A DNA stretch of 10,403 nt, from the NCBI GenBank assembly GCA_030648825.1, contig JAUSGU010000061.1, positions 1 to 10,403 of the forward strand, in the 5' to 3' direction. Positions 1 through 5,715 of this stretch are shown piece by piece. The DNA is from a bacterium (GTDB lineage: Bacteria > Patescibacteriota > Minisyncoccia > Phycocordibacterales > UBA6065). Each line of letters starts with the position of its first letter. The stretch's first letter is position 1. The notes under the pieces are model-generated. The model had not been told where the DNA came from and made no database searches. It saw only the letters and a list, made by a program, of their open reading frames with translations. Both the position numbers and the translations under genes were made by a program.

Positions 1-941
1 CCCGTGCCAAATCCTTTAACTTGGACTGTGTATGTCCCCGGCCGAAGAGACACGATAACCACCGAGTCAGCGCTCCCTTTCGTAAGACCGAAAGCACCGA
101 CTTGCTGGAATGTCCACTCGTCGTTGGCATTCCAATTGTCATTCTCTCCCATAACGTTGTCTCTCGCATCCAAAACCTTGACGGACGGATCCTGAAGCGG
201 ATTCGTCACGCCAAACTTTGCAAGCGACGGGCCGATTGCCCGAATCAAAAAGGGATAGTAATGCTGGGAGTCCCCTTTGACTTCAAACCCTTTGATAACG
301 CCTGCCGTCGGCGTGACAGTCGCGAGCACTGAGCTGTTGCCCACACCCTCACTCTGAAGCTCGTCCACAATTGCATGTCTGGCTGAACGCCTCAATGGAA
401 ACAGTCCCGATGTATAATCTCCCCCGAACCAACGGAGATCGGCGTACACAGTAGACCCATACCATGGGATATCGCCTCGCACGACGATCTTTACCGTTTC
501 GCGGGGATTTATCTTGACCGAAATATCATTGACCGCCCATTCGATAAAATCAGGGTCGGGAAAACTTGCAATAACATTGGCGAAATACCAATGGCCGTTG
601 ATCTCCACACGGAGATTTGTCAGTCCTGTGTAGGTCTCAAACCCCAGACTGTCAATCTTTCCGGAGACATTTCCGCGATTTTCTCCGATAAGTACGGAGA
701 TGACACGGTTGTAATCGCCGGCCACGAAGGCCGTGCGATTGAGTGACTCCGGTGCGATTGAGAAGACGATGTCGCTACGAGGCATCACCTGCGTTGGCGT
801 CATTTGTGGTGGTAGTAGTTGCGGTGGAAGTTGCGGTGGGGGTGGTAATATTGGCGTTGCCGCAAATGAAACCGTTGACAAAACAATGAGCGCGAACGCC
901 CACGCACTGACACTGACACCGACGGGATTTTTGGTTTTCAT
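1..941 (-). CDS. Secreted/surface protein with Pro-rich linker and RAIGPSL-type beta domain (3' end outside window)
   Basis: This open frame runs from an ATG at 941 to the left edge without a stop, giving 313 residues. Residues 1-28 form a signal peptide (KTK, then a hydrophobic stretch ending VSFAA). Residues 30-54 are a proline/glutamine-rich linker (ILPPPPQLPPQLLPPQ). Residues 57-190 look like an all-beta, Ig-like region. The C-terminal part (about 205-313) has the pattern IRAIGPSLAKFGV, DPSVKVLD, ENDNWN, VGAFGL, PGTYTVQVKGFG. That pattern is typical of a beta domain repeated in many secreted bacterial proteins; in relatives it ends soon after this point, so probably only a few residues are missing. 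The start is chosen because GGAG (955-952) lies 10 nt upstream and the signal peptide begins there. A near-consensus promoter lies at 1058-1086. By count, 32 of the first 60 bases are G/C, richer than most neighbours, so recent transfer is possible. No enzymatic motif is seen; a cell-surface or adhesion role is only a guess. Confidence 0.85.
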   Translation of the reverse strand, partial: MKTKNPVGVSVSAWAFALIVLSTVSFAATPILPPPPQLPPQLLPPQMTPTQVMPRSDIVFSIAPESLNRTAFVAGDYNRVISVLIGENRGNVSGKIDSLGFETYTGLTNLRVEINGHWYFANVIASFPDPDFIEWAVNDISVKINPRETVKIVVRGDIPWYGSTVYADLRWFGGDYTSGLFPLRRSARHAIVDELQSEGVGNSSVLATVTPTAGVIKGFEVKGDSQHYYPFLIRAIGPSLAKFGVTNPLQDPSVKVLDARDNVMGENDNWNANDEWTFQQVGAFGLTKGSADSVVIVSLRPGTYTVQVKGFGT

Positions 942-1105: not shown

Positions 1106-1525
1106 TTACTGAACTTGACAATTCGTACACATACCACCGTACATATTTACCAAGCAATATCCGAGTAAATTCTGGTCTGTCCAACAGGCTGCCCGTCCTG
1201 CACCGGAAGATGATGAAGAAGCCGGAGTTATCTTTATAGTGCCTTTGACATCCAGAGTCGCTTGCGGATTAGTAGTGCCTATGCCAACTTTTCCAGATTG
1301 AACGATGAGACCGTTCGGGGCACCGCCGGTATTGAGGAGAAGACCGCCAATTTTTGATTGAGCTATGTTTGAAATATTGAGAGGAGAAATGACATTATCG
1401 CCTGGAGGAGATTGGGTAGGCGGATTCCAATCGGCAAAGACGCTAGATATGAAAGCGAAAGCGCTGAGAATAAAAACAACCAACACTTGGACAAATATGG
1501 AATGATTTTTTATTTCTAATTTCAT
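1106..1525 (-). CDS. Small secreted tail-fibre-like protein with C-terminal cysteines
   Basis: A protein of 139 residues. Residues 8-31 are a hydrophobic signal/anchor segment ending SSVFA. Residues 33-55 carry the WNPPTQSPPGDNV...PLN pattern, followed by GGLLLNTGGAPNGLIVQSGKVGIGTTNPQ in two short blocks (60-88) and LDVKG (91-95). Such VGIGTTNP...LDVKG repeats occur in phage tail-fibre-like and adhesin-type beta structures and are very common in secreted Parcubacteria proteins. A serine-rich linker (102-107) leads to a tail with four cysteines (C114, C124, C133, C136, the last two as CxxC), plausibly disulfide-forming outside the cell. The gene starts 17 bp after the fusA stop on the same strand, in the place where tuf often lies. 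There is no useful SD (AGGA touches the ATG), but TACAAT ends 6 nt before the start. The function is unknown; a cell-surface role is inferred. Confidence 0.8.
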   Translation of the reverse strand: MKLEIKNHSIFVQVLVVFILSAFAFISSVFADWNPPTQSPPGDNVISPLNISNIAQSKIGGLLLNTGGAPNGLIVQSGKVGIGTTNPQATLDVKGTIKITPASSSSSGAGRAACWTDQNLLGYCLVNMYGGMCTNCQVQ

Positions 1526-1542: not shown

Positions 1543-3687
1543 CTATTTTCTCGTTTCCACAATCGCCTTTTCCACCTGTGGCGGAACAACTTCATAATGA
1601 TCAAACTCCATTTGGGAACTGCCCTGTCCAGAAGTCATAGAACGCAGAGCTGTGGTATATCCGAACATTTCGGCTAGAGGCACTTTGGCGATGATAGATA
1701 GGACTTGGCCTTTTGGGTTGGTGCTCTCTATTTGTCCGCGCTTTGCAGACAGAGACCCGATGATGTCACCCATGAATTTTTCCGGAGAGACGACTTCTAT
1801 TTTCATGATCGGTTCCAAGATGACTGGCCTAGCTCGTTTTGCGCCATCTTGGAAAGCTTGAGAGGCGGCAATTTTGTAAGCAATTTCGCTGGAGTCAACA
1901 TCATGATAAGAACCATATGTGAGCTCGCAGGAAATGTTTACCATCTTGTATCCGGCGACGATGCCACGATCCATTGCTTCACGCACGCCTTTTTCTACCG
2001 CGGGAATAAATTCATTTGGAATGACACCGCCTTTTATAGAGTTTATAAATTCAAAATCATCATATCGTTTTGTATTTTTCGGAATTTTCTCGCCTTCTAT
2101 CAGAGCCGGCAGAGGCTTCAATGTGATTTTGACGTGACCGTACTGACCCTTGCCTCCCGATTGTTTTATATATTTGTGTTCCGCTTCAGCTGTACCGAGA
2201 ATCGTCTCGCGATAAGCCACCTGTGGCTTACCAACATTTGTATTGACACCGAATTCGCGTTTCATGCGATCAATCATGATTTCCAGATGGAGCTCTCCCA
2301 TACCTGCGATCAGAGTCTCACCCGTTTCGGGATTGGCAGTGATATGAAATGTCGGATCTTCATTCGCCAATTTGCGCAGAGACATACCCATTTTCTCTTG
2401 GTCGGCTTTTGTAGCCGGTTCTATACGGAGAGACACCACGGGCTCCATAAATTTGATAACCTCTAAAATAATCGGGTCATTTTCGTCACAGAGGGTATGA
2501 GAAGTGAGAGCATCTTTCAATCCCACAGCGGCGGCAATTTCACCGGCGAAAACTTTGGCAACTTCTTCGCGTTTGTCTGCTTGGAGACGAACTATACGCG
2601 AGAGACGTTCGCGCTTGCCTGTTGTGGCATTGTATATATATGAACCAGCTTCCAGTGTTCCGGAATAAACGCGAAAGAATGTGAGCTGACCGACAAAAGG
2701 ATCGTTCTGCAATTTGAATGCCAGAGCGGAAAAAGGTTCGGAGTCGTCAGCATGACGGATGACTTCTACACCCGTATCAGGATGATGGCCTCTAACCGGC
2801 GGAATATCCAGAGGTGAAGGTAAGTAATCAACGACGGCATCCAAAACCAGCTGGACGCCTTTGTTTTTCAGAGCCGAGCCAGTCATCACAGGAAAAATTT
2901 TGCAGGCTAGAGTGGCCTTGCGCAGACCTTTCTTTATCGTGTCCATATCAAAAACTTTGCCCTCCAAATAAGCGGTCATGAGAGAATCGTCCGTTTCCGC
3001 GATTTTTTCAACCATTTCTGCGTGATATTTTTTTGCATCTTCGGCATATTCGGCTGGAATTTCCGCTTCAATGACTTTCTCACCCTTCTCTCCTTCAAAT
3101 GTATAGGCCTTCATACGAACGAGATCAATGACACCTACGAGATTTTCTTCCAATCCCATAGGGATCTGAATGCGCACAGCGTGTTTGTTGAGACGTTCCA
3201 AAATGGATTTGTATGATTTTTCAAAACTGGCTCCCATGCGGTCTAATTTGTTTATGAAACATATACGAGGCACATTTGATTCGTCGGCATAACGCCAGTT
3301 TGTTTCCGATTGGGGTTCAACTCCGGCCACACCATCAAATACGACGACCGCGCCGTCCAGAACACGCAAAGATCGCTTTACTTCAACTGTAAAATCTATG
3401 TGCCCAGGGGTGTCTATGACATTGAAGCGACATTTTTTCGTAGTATCGCCTGCTGGCATATATGTCGGGTTCCAGAAACAAGTGATAGCGGCGGCAGTGA
3501 TAGTGATACCACGCTCGCGCTCCTGTTCCATCCAATCAGTAGTAGTCTCGCCTTCATGAACCTCACCGATTTTATGAATCATACCCGTGTAATACAAAAT
3601 GCGTTCCGATGTGGTCGTTTTTCCCGCATCTATATGAGCAATAACTCCGAAGTTTCTGACTTTGTCCAATGGATAATCTCGGTTCAT
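1543..3687 (-). CDS. fusA: Translation elongation factor G
   Basis: EF-G is the GTPase that drives tRNA and mRNA translocation on the ribosome and, with RRF, ribosome recycling. The 714-residue protein is full length. The G domain shows AHIDAGKTT (17-25), the switch I region with RERGITI (57-63), DTPGH (92-96) and NKLD (146-149). Domain II is about 315-400 and domain III about 410-480. Domain IV contains GGKGQYGHV (511-519) and the tip loop GSYHDVDSS (592-600). Domain V is about 615-700 and contains MFGYTTALRS. Relative to E. coli EF-G, domain IV carries an extra stretch of about ten residues near 527-542. The gene is third in the rpsL-rpsG-fusA (str) operon, 25 bp after rpsG. There is no SD; TATAAT ends 6 nt before the ATG. 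tuf does not follow. Confidence 0.98.
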   Translation of the reverse strand: MNRDYPLDKVRNFGVIAHIDAGKTTTSERILYYTGMIHKIGEVHEGETTTDWMEQERERGITITAAAITCFWNPTYMPAGDTTKKCRFNVIDTPGHIDFTVEVKRSLRVLDGAVVVFDGVAGVEPQSETNWRYADESNVPRICFINKLDRMGASFEKSYKSILERLNKHAVRIQIPMGLEENLVGVIDLVRMKAYTFEGEKGEKVIEAEIPAEYAEDAKKYHAEMVEKIAETDDSLMTAYLEGKVFDMDTIKKGLRKATLACKIFPVMTGSALKNKGVQLVLDAVVDYLPSPLDIPPVRGHHPDTGVEVIRHADDSEPFSALAFKLQNDPFVGQLTFFRVYSGTLEAGSYIYNATTGKRERLSRIVRLQADKREEVAKVFAGEIAAAVGLKDALTSHTLCDENDPIILEVIKFMEPVVSLRIEPATKADQEKMGMSLRKLANEDPTFHITANPETGETLIAGMGELHLEIMIDRMKREFGVNTNVGKPQVAYRETILGTAEAEHKYIKQSGGKGQYGHVKITLKPLPALIEGEKIPKNTKRYDDFEFINSIKGGVIPNEFIPAVEKGVREAMDRGIVAGYKMVNISCELTYGSYHDVDSSEIAYKIAASQAFQDGAKRARPVILEPIMKIEVVSPEKFMGDIIGSLSAKRGQIESTNPKGQVLSIIAKVPLAEMFGYTTALRSMTSGQGSSQMEFDHYEVVPPQVEKAIVETRK

Positions 3688-3693
3688 AAAATA

Positions 3694-3723
3694 ATTATAA
3701 GTAAATATTTAGCTACCAAGCAA
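3694..3723 (-). promoter_or_regulatory. Candidate internal promoter for fusA
   Basis: Minus strand: TTGCTT (3723-3718), an 18-bp spacer, and TATAAT (3699-3694), a perfect -10 that ends 6 nt before the fusA ATG. The -35 lies within the last codons of rpsG. The same -35 hexamer, TTGCTT, precedes the methyltransferase gene at 5770-5775. Transcription would start about at the ATG, giving a leaderless fusA mRNA separate from the str operon. Confidence 0.5.
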
Positions 3724-4183
3724 AGTGAGCAAAAGCTTTGTTGGCTTCGGCCATTTTGTGGGTATTTTCGCGCTTTTTTACGGCATCACCTTCGTTTTTG
3801 GATGCGGCGATGATTTCATCGGCCAGTTTTGCGGAAATAGGAGCGCCTTTTTTATTTCTAGCGGCGTCTATAATCCATTTTATGGAGAGTGCTTGACGAC
3901 GTTCCGGTCTGACTTCTACTGGAACTTGATAATTTGCTCCACCAACGCGCCTAGAACGCACCTCCACATTCGGAGCCGTGTTTTTCAAGGCCGCTTCAAA
4001 TACGTCCAGAGGATTTTCTGTTTTTGCTTTTTCTTTTATGATGTCAAAGCATTTGTAGACGTTTGATCGGGCGAGATTTTTCTTGCCATCATACATAATG
4101 TAATTCATCAGTTTTGAAACTTTCGGCGATTGATATTTCAGATCCGGAGACAGATCGCGTTTTATGTTTATTTTTCTGCGCAT
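3713..4183 (-). CDS. rpsG: 30S ribosomal protein S7
   Basis: uS7 binds the 3' major domain of 16S rRNA, starts assembly of the 30S head and lines the E site. At 156 residues it has the usual bacterial length. Recognisable parts are LMNYIMYDGKKNLA (25-38), ALKNTAPNVEVRSRRVGGA (65-83) with YQVPVEV (85-91), and the C-terminal KRENTHKMAEANKAFAHF (137-154). It is the second gene of the str operon, 51 bp after rpsL. In E. coli the rpsL-rpsG spacer is an S7 autoregulatory target; here the spacer is short, very A/T-rich and has no obvious strong hairpin. No SD is visible before the ATG. Confidence 0.97.
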   Translation of the reverse strand: MRRKINIKRDLSPDLKYQSPKVSKLMNYIMYDGKKNLARSNVYKCFDIIKEKAKTENPLDVFEAALKNTAPNVEVRSRRVGGANYQVPVEVRPERRQALSIKWIIDAARNKKGAPISAKLADEIIAASKNEGDAVKKRENTHKMAEANKAFAHFAW

Positions 4184-4234: not shown

Positions 4235-4651
4235 TTATTTCGCGACCTTCGGCTTCTTTGTGCCGTACTGACTGCGACCTTTTGCTCTCTTGTCCACACC
4301 TGTGGCATCCAAAACCCCTCGGACAACCGTATAGCGGAGACCAACGTCTTTTACACGACCACCGCGGAGCAATACCACAGAGTGTTCCTGCAGAGCGTGT
4401 CCAATGCCGGGAATATAAGCCGTAACTTCCATGCCGTTGGACAAACGCACGCGAGCGATTTTTCTGATAGCCGAGTTTGGTTTCTTTGGAGTTTTGGTCG
4501 TCACTTTTATGCAGACACCGCGTTTGAAAGGAGAATAGAAATATCGCGGCTCGTTTTTGAGCACGTTAAAGCTCTTTGTCAGAGCGACAGATTTTGACTT
4601 TCGTTTTAGTGAACGTCTCTTTCTCTTCACCAATTGATGAATGGTTGGCAT
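4235..4651 (-). CDS. rpsL: 30S ribosomal protein S12
   Basis: uS12 sits at the decoding centre and affects accuracy and streptomycin response. The 138 residues show QLVKRKR (6-12), KRGVC (43-47), [13 protein letters not shown] (52-64), RVRLSNG (67-73), [20 protein letters not shown] (79-98) and [10 protein letters not shown] (126-135). The segment before KRGVC is about 13 residues longer than in E. coli, as in Bacillus-type S12. One feature is odd: the loop that reads KDLPGVRY in E. coli reads KDVGLRY here (101-107), one residue shorter, next to the aspartate (D102) that RimO modifies in many bacteria. It is the first gene of the str operon, behind a leader of about 215 nt with strong predicted structure. 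No clear SD (AAGA only) precedes the ATG. Confidence 0.98.
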
Positions 4652-4689
4652 TCTTTTTTATGAATTAATTATTGAACTAAAACCGGACT

Positions 4690-4817
4690 AAACACGAGAT
4701 TGTTTCGGAACAAGTGTAGCTTCGCGGCTTTGGAGCTTGAGTTGCGCTTCACTTTTGCCTTTGCGCTTGCCCCGGGCCGTTACTCACCTGTTCCCTTTTA
4801 AATAGCGTCATGGACGC
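4690..4817 (-). ncRNA. Structured leader RNA upstream of rpsL, class unknown
   Basis: On the minus strand the leader can form a long interrupted hairpin. Helix 1 pairs GGAACAGGTG (4794-4785) with CACTTGTTCC (4716-4707), 10 bp with one G-U. Helix 2 is CGGC (4779-4776) with GCCG (4728-4725). Helix 3 is GGGGC (4773-4769) with GCTCC (4736-4732), with one G-U. Helix 4 is GCGC (4766-4763) with GCGC (4747-4744), closing a 15-nt loop. The total is 23 nested pairs. A small hairpin lies on each side: GCGTC-CAT-GACGC (4817-4805) and AAACA-ATCTCG-TGTTT (4705-4690). Both wobble pairs would be A-C mismatches if the plus strand were transcribed, which supports the minus strand. It sits between a candidate promoter (4871-4898) and rpsL, so an r-protein or translation-linked regulatory leader is likely. 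It lacks the SRP, 6S, tmRNA and RNase P motifs I know and any complete riboswitch consensus. Pairing was found by eye, not by energy calculation. Confidence 0.6.
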
Positions 4818-4870
4818 AATAGAGAGATTACTATAAAACGAATTAATAATCAAGAAAACAAAAAAAGGGA

Positions 4871-4898
4871 ATTATAAAGATCTCACTTCTGCTGTGAA
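4871..4898 (-). promoter_or_regulatory. Candidate str operon promoter
   Basis: Minus strand: TTCACA (4898-4893, one mismatch to TTGACA), a 16-bp spacer and TATAAT (4876-4871). It lies immediately after the terminator of the protease gene and about 220 nt before the rpsL ATG, so the transcript would include the whole structured leader. Confidence 0.6.
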
Positions 4899-4902
4899 TA
4901 AC

Positions 4903-4929
4903 AAAACCGCGCAGACATTAATTGCGCGG
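4903..4929 (-). terminator. Intrinsic terminator overlapping the protease stop codon
   Basis: Minus strand: CCGCGC (4929-4924), an 11-nt loop and GCGCGG (4912-4907), followed by TTTT (4906-4903). The 5' arm is formed by the last sense codons of the protease gene (Pro-Arg), and the TAA stop (4920-4918) lies in the loop. The stem is all G-C, and the str promoter -35 begins five bases beyond the T tract. Confidence 0.75.
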
Positions 4930-5715
4930 CTTGAGATCAAACGGTCCTATGACTATGGATAGATTCGTGTTCTTCCGGATACCGAATCTGAAATAGGTTT
5001 CCAAAAGATCTGGGTGAGTAACGAAATTCTCCATATGGCCCTTGAAAACATATAAATTCTCCTCATCATCAATAAACCCCGTACCACTCTCGCCGGGGTG
5101 TGAAGTATGGGGAATTAAAAGTATCTTGGCTCCCTTTGTATTATCAGACCAGAGCACTACCTGATATGCCTTGCCACTCACGAGAGACTTCAGTAGAAAT
5201 TTGCTCTTTATAGTCTGAAGGGAGAATTTTTTGATGTTATCCCTAGCATTGTAGCCATCCGAAAATTCAGAGAAACATTCAATGAGTTTTGGAACACCAA
5301 CCTCAAACATGGCAACATCTGTCGCAGACACGATTGGCGATTTAGACATTTCACTACCTTTGTAGGAAATCTCTGTGATTCCGCGGTCTGCAGGAATCCA
5401 ATTGTCGAACGGACGGAGCAAGCGGGTAAAGAAATACTGTTTGCCGAGATCTTTATGAAACAAATGTTCCACGGTCACGAGATATTTCCTTCCAGAAGCA
5501 CCGGAAATTAGTGTGCCGCAACCGGCATAGTAAACAGCTTTGGCATCCCTAGTCTGATATATCAGAACTGGTTGATAATTCTTTGAAACTTCTTGCGACG
5601 TCGTCTGACCGATAATATAGTCTTCTACGTCAAATGGTTTTGCTTTCTGACAAATAACGAGGACAGAACCGGCGATAATCGCCAGTGAAATACTGATGAT
5701 TAAGAGTTTTTTCAT
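4918..5715 (-). CDS. Membrane-anchored trypsin-like serine protease (divergent)
   Basis: A protein of 265 residues. KK followed by a hydrophobic stretch (4-22) is a signal peptide or N-terminal anchor, placing the rest outside the membrane. The body matches a chymotrypsin/trypsin fold in pattern. GCGTLIS (65-71) precedes LVTVEHLF (79-86), with H84 in the place of the catalytic histidine. ATDVAMFEV (131-139) offers D133. GESGTGF (208-214) offers S210 as nucleophile, like GDSGGP in trypsin. The His-Asp and Asp-Ser spacings (49 and 77) are reasonable for the fold. The specific substrate is unknown; surface protein processing or quality control is a guess. The start has a good SD, GGAG, 6 nt upstream (5725-5722). 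It lies alone on its strand, divergent from the methyltransferase, and ends in its own terminator. The triad assignment comes from motif spacing only, so a degenerate or inactive relative cannot be excluded. Confidence 0.7.
   Translation of the reverse strand: MKKLLIISISLAIIAGSVLVICQKAKPFDVEDYIIGQTTSQEVSKNYQPVLIYQTRDAKAVYYAGCGTLISGASGRKYLVTVEHLFHKDLGKQYFFTRLLRPFDNWIPADRGITEISYKGSEMSKSPIVSATDVAMFEVGVPKLIECFSEFSDGYNARDNIKKFSLQTIKSKFLLKSLVSGKAYQVVLWSDNTKGAKILLIPHTSHPGESGTGFIDDEENLYVFKGHMENFVTHPDLLETYFRFGIRKNTNLSIVIGPFDLKPRN

Follow-up and report, generated by a model that had tools for sequence, protein, structure and literature searches.

Control of the str operon by ribosomal protein S7 is a textbook case. 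In Escherichia coli, the spacer between rpsL and rpsG contains a 16S-like site at which S7 represses its own operon; this repression needs translational coupling of the two genes (PMC10931766). A 16S-like S7 site was also proposed for the str operon of a cyanobacterium (Anacystis), where control was thought likely, and a 2024 review describes S7 control of str as unstudied in further phyla and the E. coli structure as not obviously conserved (PMC10931766). Several r-protein leaders imitate rRNA (S15, S4, L20; Eckert and Weinberg 2020, PMC7247131); like the leader described here, they covary and stand consistently before r-protein genes. Bulged-G-type modules in r-leaders are mentioned in the same source (PMC7247131), and neither a leader for S7 or the str operon nor any Patescibacteria appear in the 20 rows of its Table 1, the entry 'rpsl' beside rplM being one that we read as rpsI. 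A literature search on S7 and str mRNA, leaders with rpsL, autoregulation and Patescibacteria found no such leader; subscription papers were mostly outside its scope, and an earlier description in print is possible.

The window, by which we mean the whole 10,403-nucleotide stretch of DNA analysed, encodes on its minus strand a structured spacer followed by rpsL (S12), rpsG (S7) and fusA (EF-G), as identified with Pfam (Table 1). A 139-aa protein encoded after fusA (1106-1525, minus strand) has a weak Pfam match to Cohesin (24.7 bits against a cut-off of 24.1), and a 265-aa protein encoded ahead of the leader (4918-5715, minus strand) has no Pfam match. Our analyses indicate that the leader of this rpsL-rpsG(-fusA) mRNA is most likely a cis-acting, autoregulatory element bound by uS7, a reading based on sequence comparison.

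Table 1. Leader and operon features in the window.
Feature	Position	Strand	Evidence
Putative promoter, -35 TTGATT 4853-4848, spacer 17, -10 TAATCT 4830-4825	4825..4853	-	
5' hairpin GCGTC-CAT-GACGC, then linker TATTTAA	4805..4817	-	fold; CGCTATTT invariant in 7 genus members
Helix P2, 5' strand GGAACAGGTG	4785..4794	-	9/10 pairs changed on both sides, 48 sequences
Internal loop, 5' side AGUAA	4780..4784	-	48/48 identical; counterpart E. coli 16S 1346-1350; family-core profile match at 16S 1346
Helix P3, 5' strand CGGC	4776..4779	-	96.1% of cells paired, 3/4 pairs double-changed
CUC within apical conserved stretch (A/U)CUCAAGC	4739..4741	-	column counts
Helix P3, 3' strand GCCG	4725..4728	-	same covariation set as P3 5' strand
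Internal loop, 3' side GAA	4721..4723	-	48/48 identical; counterpart E. coli 16S 1373-1375
Helix P2, 3' strand CACTTGTTCC	4707..4716	-	same covariation set as P2 5' strand, 48 sequences
rpsL, ribosomal protein S12	4235..4651	-	Pfam PF00164, 105.6 bits
rpsG, ribosomal protein S7, proposed ligand	3713..4183	-	Pfam PF00177, 201.5 bits
fusA, elongation factor G	1543..3687	-	Pfam EF-G domains

Fold and parts of the leader

The leader hairpin at 4690-4817 is real. On the minus strand this 128-nt segment reaches a minimum energy of -42.5 kcal/mol, compared with -32.16 +/- 3.31 for 200 dinucleotide shuffles (z -3.12, 0/200 as good), whereas the plus strand gives z -0.93 with 35 of 200 shuffles as good. 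The comparison with shuffled sequence is clear for this segment and weaker for the longer interval that had been proposed for folding, 4652-4870 (z -1.74, 10/200). Nested helices of 10, 4, 5 and 4 bp, as originally described, are present in the minimum-energy fold, which adds three pairs past the bulge after the 10-bp helix and two more after the last 4 bp. These three added pairs make better sense as an internal loop in which AGUAA faces GAA, both invariant in all 48 sequences aligned. The apical helices differ between genomes in length and sequence. Both of the small flanking hairpins that had been noted form in the window fold, but the 3' one does not belong to the shared element: by eye it is absent from the other six genus members, one of which (L008) has a different insertion there. 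Hairpins like the 5' one were seen by eye, and also in single-sequence folds, in most relatives and are weak in, for example, L142, L206 and L207. The single-sequence fold of relative L003 reached only z -1.24, on a stretch that was cut into P2 and includes coding sequence.

Further conserved positions are the G two positions before GAA (48/48) and the apical C, U and C, present in 41/41, 40/41 and 35/41 rows, respectively, of a stretch that is gapped in 7 of the 48 rows. A candidate pseudoknot of UGAG/CGAG with CUCA/CUCG was left out of the structure: judged by eye, many but not all of the early sequences could form it, and it conflicts with the last part of P2.

The promoter upstream, TTGATT-17-TAATCT, is putative. 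It fits the arrangement TTGNNN-16..18-TANNNT, a permissive pattern that precedes 45 of the 48 elements in a count made without background control; a consensus promoter scan listed TTCACA-16-TATAAT at 4898-4871 and not TTGATT-17-TAATCT. The end of this putative promoter is separated from the 5' hairpin by 7 nt, so the RNA would be expected to start at about that hairpin. In other families a short hairpin with a T-rich run recurs by eye shortly before the rpsL start codon (for example in L012, L025, L028 and L031), soon after promoter-like sequence, and this hairpin may be a simpler form of the 5' hairpin of the leader.

Covariation and distribution of the element

In a MAFFT alignment of the seven genus sequences, 86.7% of cells were paired against 75.7% when shuffled, with 7 of 14 pairs double-changed. 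Ten sequences (the genus plus L036, L037 and L044, also MAFFT) gave 86.1% against 66.5%, with 11 of 14 pairs double-changed; neither alignment was fitted to the structure. The alignment of 48 sequences is model-fitted and so leans towards the structure: in it 86.8% of pair cells hold (64.2% shuffled), 145 cells show double changes (39.0 shuffled) and the covariation score is 0.581, where shuffling gives 0.189 and sliding no more than 0.138. Double changes touch 12 of the 14 pairs, a value that 35 of 500 shuffles reach. Within P2, columns 14/133, third from the loop, are unpaired in 37 of 48 rows and columns 13/134 in 17 of 43. This alignment (A7) holds 48 of 49 sources, L211 falling below the inclusion cut-off; a match at L006:3082-3172 (E 0.045) was a row of alignment A5 and was dropped in A6. 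Compensatory changes, one of the tests named with the original prediction, support the 10-bp and 4-bp helices in the alignments of 7, 10 and 48 sequences. The element thus has the conserved, covarying secondary structure by which r-protein leaders are recognized, and we are nearly certain that a conserved cis-regulatory RNA before rpsL is real.

rpsL was identified in 7/7 genus genomes and in 56 of 60 relatives. In all seven members of the genus the element lies ahead of it with a common layout: promoter, small 5' hairpin, TATTT linker, P2, AGTAAC, a variable apical part, GAAG and the P2 return. Upstream regions in other families mostly look different by eye. A model of the seven genus sequences (R1) found 7 matches in 297 genomes of the order, all of them genus members. 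When run on the window and 89 loci it matched L044 (26.6 bits, E 0.00088), not L036 or L037, and gave three further matches at E 1.9 to 5.9. Outside the genus, L036, L037 and L044, which equal the second-family loci L186, L194 and L182, carry AGTAATCG..CGGTGAA. They were recognized by eye, among 29 of 80 named loci, and with a pattern whose search covered the 113 of 135 loci with a located rpsL; the locating step missed six rpsL-bearing loci (L013, L041, L067, L070, L095 and L103). The pattern missed L003 and L008 of the genus itself; its background was 4 matches in 1,317,948 bases. A looser descriptor (AGTAA, GAA and two helices) was not discriminating. It hit 8 of 93 upstream regions and 2 of 92 rpsL-rpsG spacers outside the genus (shuffle means 2.0 and 0.5), several of these matches not being the element by eye, and 6 of 7 genus loci, some at the wrong AGTAA.

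A model of ten sequences (R2) found 17 matches in 397 genomes; outside the genus, 8 of 10 stand before rpsL and 2 elsewhere. With 18 sequences (R3) there were 4 matches in 383 genomes of the class, all within the order: the window genome, two leaders already known and the non-rpsL match L143. L143 (E 8e-4) and L145 (E 0.084), which are not before rpsL, were taken as chance. In the second family the 18-sequence model matched 41 of 53 genomes once each and left 12 without a match; 40 of these 41 matches lie directly before rpsL and one at a contig end, the placements coming from three checks (7 in one, 30 of 34 in another and 3 more in a third). In the third family 2 of 12 genomes matched, one before rpsL and the other (L212, E 0.002) taken as chance, as it overlaps an infC-like frame by eye. 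The element is thus found in 49 genomes (7 + 41 + 1) of one order, whose named relatives bear the labels Patescibacteria or Parcubacteria. Genome G007, of the same family but another genus, gave no rpsL match and no match to R1 or R2, and no relative was found in viral contigs. Searches of more than 40 genomes ran with stricter filters, at the cost of weak matches, and a missing match in them carries less weight.

After the element, the genes for S12 and S7 come in that order in 47 of 48 loci, the remaining one being at a contig end, and EF-G follows S7 in 13 of 48 stretches, many of which are short. r-protein genes are therefore consistently downstream, as they are for r-protein leaders.

Likeness to 16S helix 43 and the candidate ligand

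A two-part core profile was built from the 48 leaders, with 8 + 7 columns and P2 excluded. In E. coli rRNA its maximum, the highest score attainable (26.5, 0/400 shuffles), falls at 16S 1346/1369, on AGTAATCG..CGGTGAA; the next-best scores were 15.8 elsewhere in 16S, 14.1 in 23S and 7.9 in 5S. The 16S numbering was checked by the profile match in the annotated rrsA gene, and the 16S of genome G009 gave the same maximum. All 15 core nucleotides at the base of helix 43 (E. coli 1346-1353 / 1369-1375) are thus the consensus of the 48 leaders. The setting differs, as the 16S core lies at a multi-helix junction and the leader core on one continuous helix, P2. The class of the RNA, originally called unknown, can be narrowed accordingly, since the family core resembles the base of helix 43, which lies within the S7 site.

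It is the 41 leaders from outside the genus that account for the likeness. With the 48-sequence profile, helix 43 is the best place in three same-genus 16S genes at 18.9, a score attained by 13 to 21 of 400 shuffles, and a profile of the 41 non-genus leaders ranked helix 43 first in 5/5 16S genes. With a profile of the seven genus leaders, helix 43 came second in the 16S of E. coli (12.7) and third in that of G009, and it was outside the top four in 3/3 same-genus 16S genes. The genus-only profile fails because P3 has drifted to CGG/CCG, so that the P3 pairs of the window genus differ from helix 43, and the ligand proposed for the window copy therefore depends on its homology to the other leaders. 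Likeness to rRNA, which is frequent and not required in r-leaders, is accordingly seen in the family and not in the seven genus sequences alone. The 16S of the window genome was not found in its assembly. Of 397 genomes, 265 contain the exact pattern AGTAATCG-N10-40-CGGTGAA; among the matches listed, most read by eye as 16S helix 43. With filters off, the full covariance models were run on 16S genes and on the str region of E. coli and gave no match at helix 43; we put down the miss of 16S to its lacking P2.

Two loci of the same genus, L121:1501-1623 (plus strand, genome G003) and L126:1501-1668 (minus strand, genome G004), match the 16S model only at about 108-309, with 63 and 22 bits. They have in common a 16S-like GGGTAAYGGCCCACCAAG..GTAGC..CTGAGA, and no tRNA or tmRNA was found at either stretch. 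By eye, L121 adjoins an rpsO-like gene and follows a TATAAT. The fragment is the sole 16S match in G003, and in G004 its contig also carries a full 16S at another position. The two stretches have the appearance of a distinct RNA that mimics the 5' domain of 16S.

According to two structural sources, the S7 site spans the H28/H29/H43 junction with immediate contact to H43 (PMC13004024), and S7 crosslinks to A1377-C1378 of 16S (PMC3548175), which adjoin the GAA copied in the leader. From these comparisons we infer binding of S7 to the leader, with repression as its effect and translation initiation as the step at which it acts. The leader core (P2, AGUAA facing Y-GAA, and P3) would imitate the helix 43 base that S7 contacts, so that S7 in excess over 16S rRNA would bind the leader. 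Bound S7 would stabilise P2 near the rpsL start and lower rpsL translation, and rpsG would be lowered too through coupling or mRNA decay. P2 lies -5 to 179 nt from the AUG in the 46 measured loci of 48 (55 nt in the window). The AUG is inside P2 in 3 of 46 loci, inside or at most 35 nt away in 22 and more than 35 nt away in 24, so direct occlusion is not the whole story. A block of initiation is easily pictured for the near loci; where the AUG is distant, S7 may work through decay of the mRNA or on additional structure. Attenuation is disfavoured for the window copy, because no terminator-like site was found on the minus strand at 4600-4960.

The same contacts allow another reading, to which we give a rather small chance: the leader may imitate, as a composite, the site where S7 first encounters 16S and not the mature site, in an arrangement that evolved separately from that of E. 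coli. U1321 crosslinks to S7 in the binary complex, but the 30S crystal places it 35 A away from S7 (PMC3548175). On such a model the internal loop would copy the helix 43 base, contacted at once by S7, and the apical CUCAA stretch the helix 42 loop around U1321. By clamping P2, S7 would mask the rpsL start, which would let one site at the first gene control the whole operon.

Other ligands fit the data less well. S12 is an improbable one even though rpsL is directly downstream in every strong readable match, since the family core matches helix 43, part of the S7 site; the S12 site is elsewhere on 16S, and we know of no S12 autoregulation. Bulged-G loops bind many proteins and AGUA/GAA alone is a common bulged-G module, so the leader could sense another factor of helix 43 or of such loops (S9, an assembly factor or EF-G, the last encoded in the window operon) or a small molecule. 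We rate this no higher than S12, as EF-G follows rpsG in only 13 of 48 stretches, though many are short, and no Rfam riboswitch family matches. At gathering score none of 4227 Rfam 15 families matched in the window, as the original prediction had anticipated for a new RNA, nor in L006, L137, L138, L140 or L144, which sets aside a riboswitch or any other RNA already in Rfam. When matches with E as high as 10 were allowed, region 4600-4920 gave one weak match, to Corona_pk3 (E 2.8). The ligand-sensing element that had been considered finds no support here as a small-molecule sensor.

A constitutive 5' structure that stabilises the mRNA and has no ligand would be in keeping with the short hairpins that precede rpsL near the 5' end in other families of the order (by eye), and is nevertheless very unlikely, because the invariant AGUAA and GAA and the strongly conserved CUC are unexpected of a mere stem. 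The stand-alone small RNA that had been offered as an option has in its favour a short hairpin after the window copy, and we regard it as scarcely credible given the lack of a terminator-like site on the minus strand at 4600-4960 and the single copy per matching genome, before rpsL in the strong readable cases. What gained support among the original suggestions is the r-protein leader controlling S12/S7/EF-G, through covariation, its fixed place before rpsL-rpsG and the helix 43 likeness.

Comparison with str control in other bacteria

The closest described system is the S7 site of the E. coli str operon, which shares with the leader the operon, the proposed ligand and a 16S-like site. Read by eye, the E. 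coli site (NC_000913.3) has a CUCCGUU helix, AGUAA, GG..CC, a U, GAA, five nucleotides and AACGGAG, with ACUC in the apical part, a layout like that of the leader. Scored with the leader core profile, it obtains a value that 1566 of 4000 shuffles reach, the likeness being one of layout seen by eye. The position differs: the E. coli site, like that proposed for Anacystis, is intercistronic, between rpsL and rpsG, whereas the leader stands before rpsL. The window spacer between these genes is 51 nt and lacks the element. The corresponding spacer spans 10-51 nt in nine carriers; L044 has one of 162 nt, and some other carriers also have longer ones. None contains a model match, each genome having a single match located elsewhere. 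In one genome without a match to the leader models (G015, locus L024), the 140-nt rpsL-rpsG spacer, a hit of the looser descriptor, contains GATTTATAGAGTAAG..GTCAAAAGTCTGAAAAAAGTCTATAAATC in an arrangement that looks like that of the S7 site in E. coli.

The original prediction had cited E. coli str control as a contrast; by the helix 43 likeness of the family core, the leader belongs with S7 control of str. It is most likely S7-type r-protein control at a different place in the same operon, with S7 binding predicted from sequence. If S7 does bind, the leader would be a compact, minimal S7-binding RNA and would point to regulated ribosome synthesis in very small genomes; compared with the E. 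coli site, the same control would have been built more than once, or would have moved.
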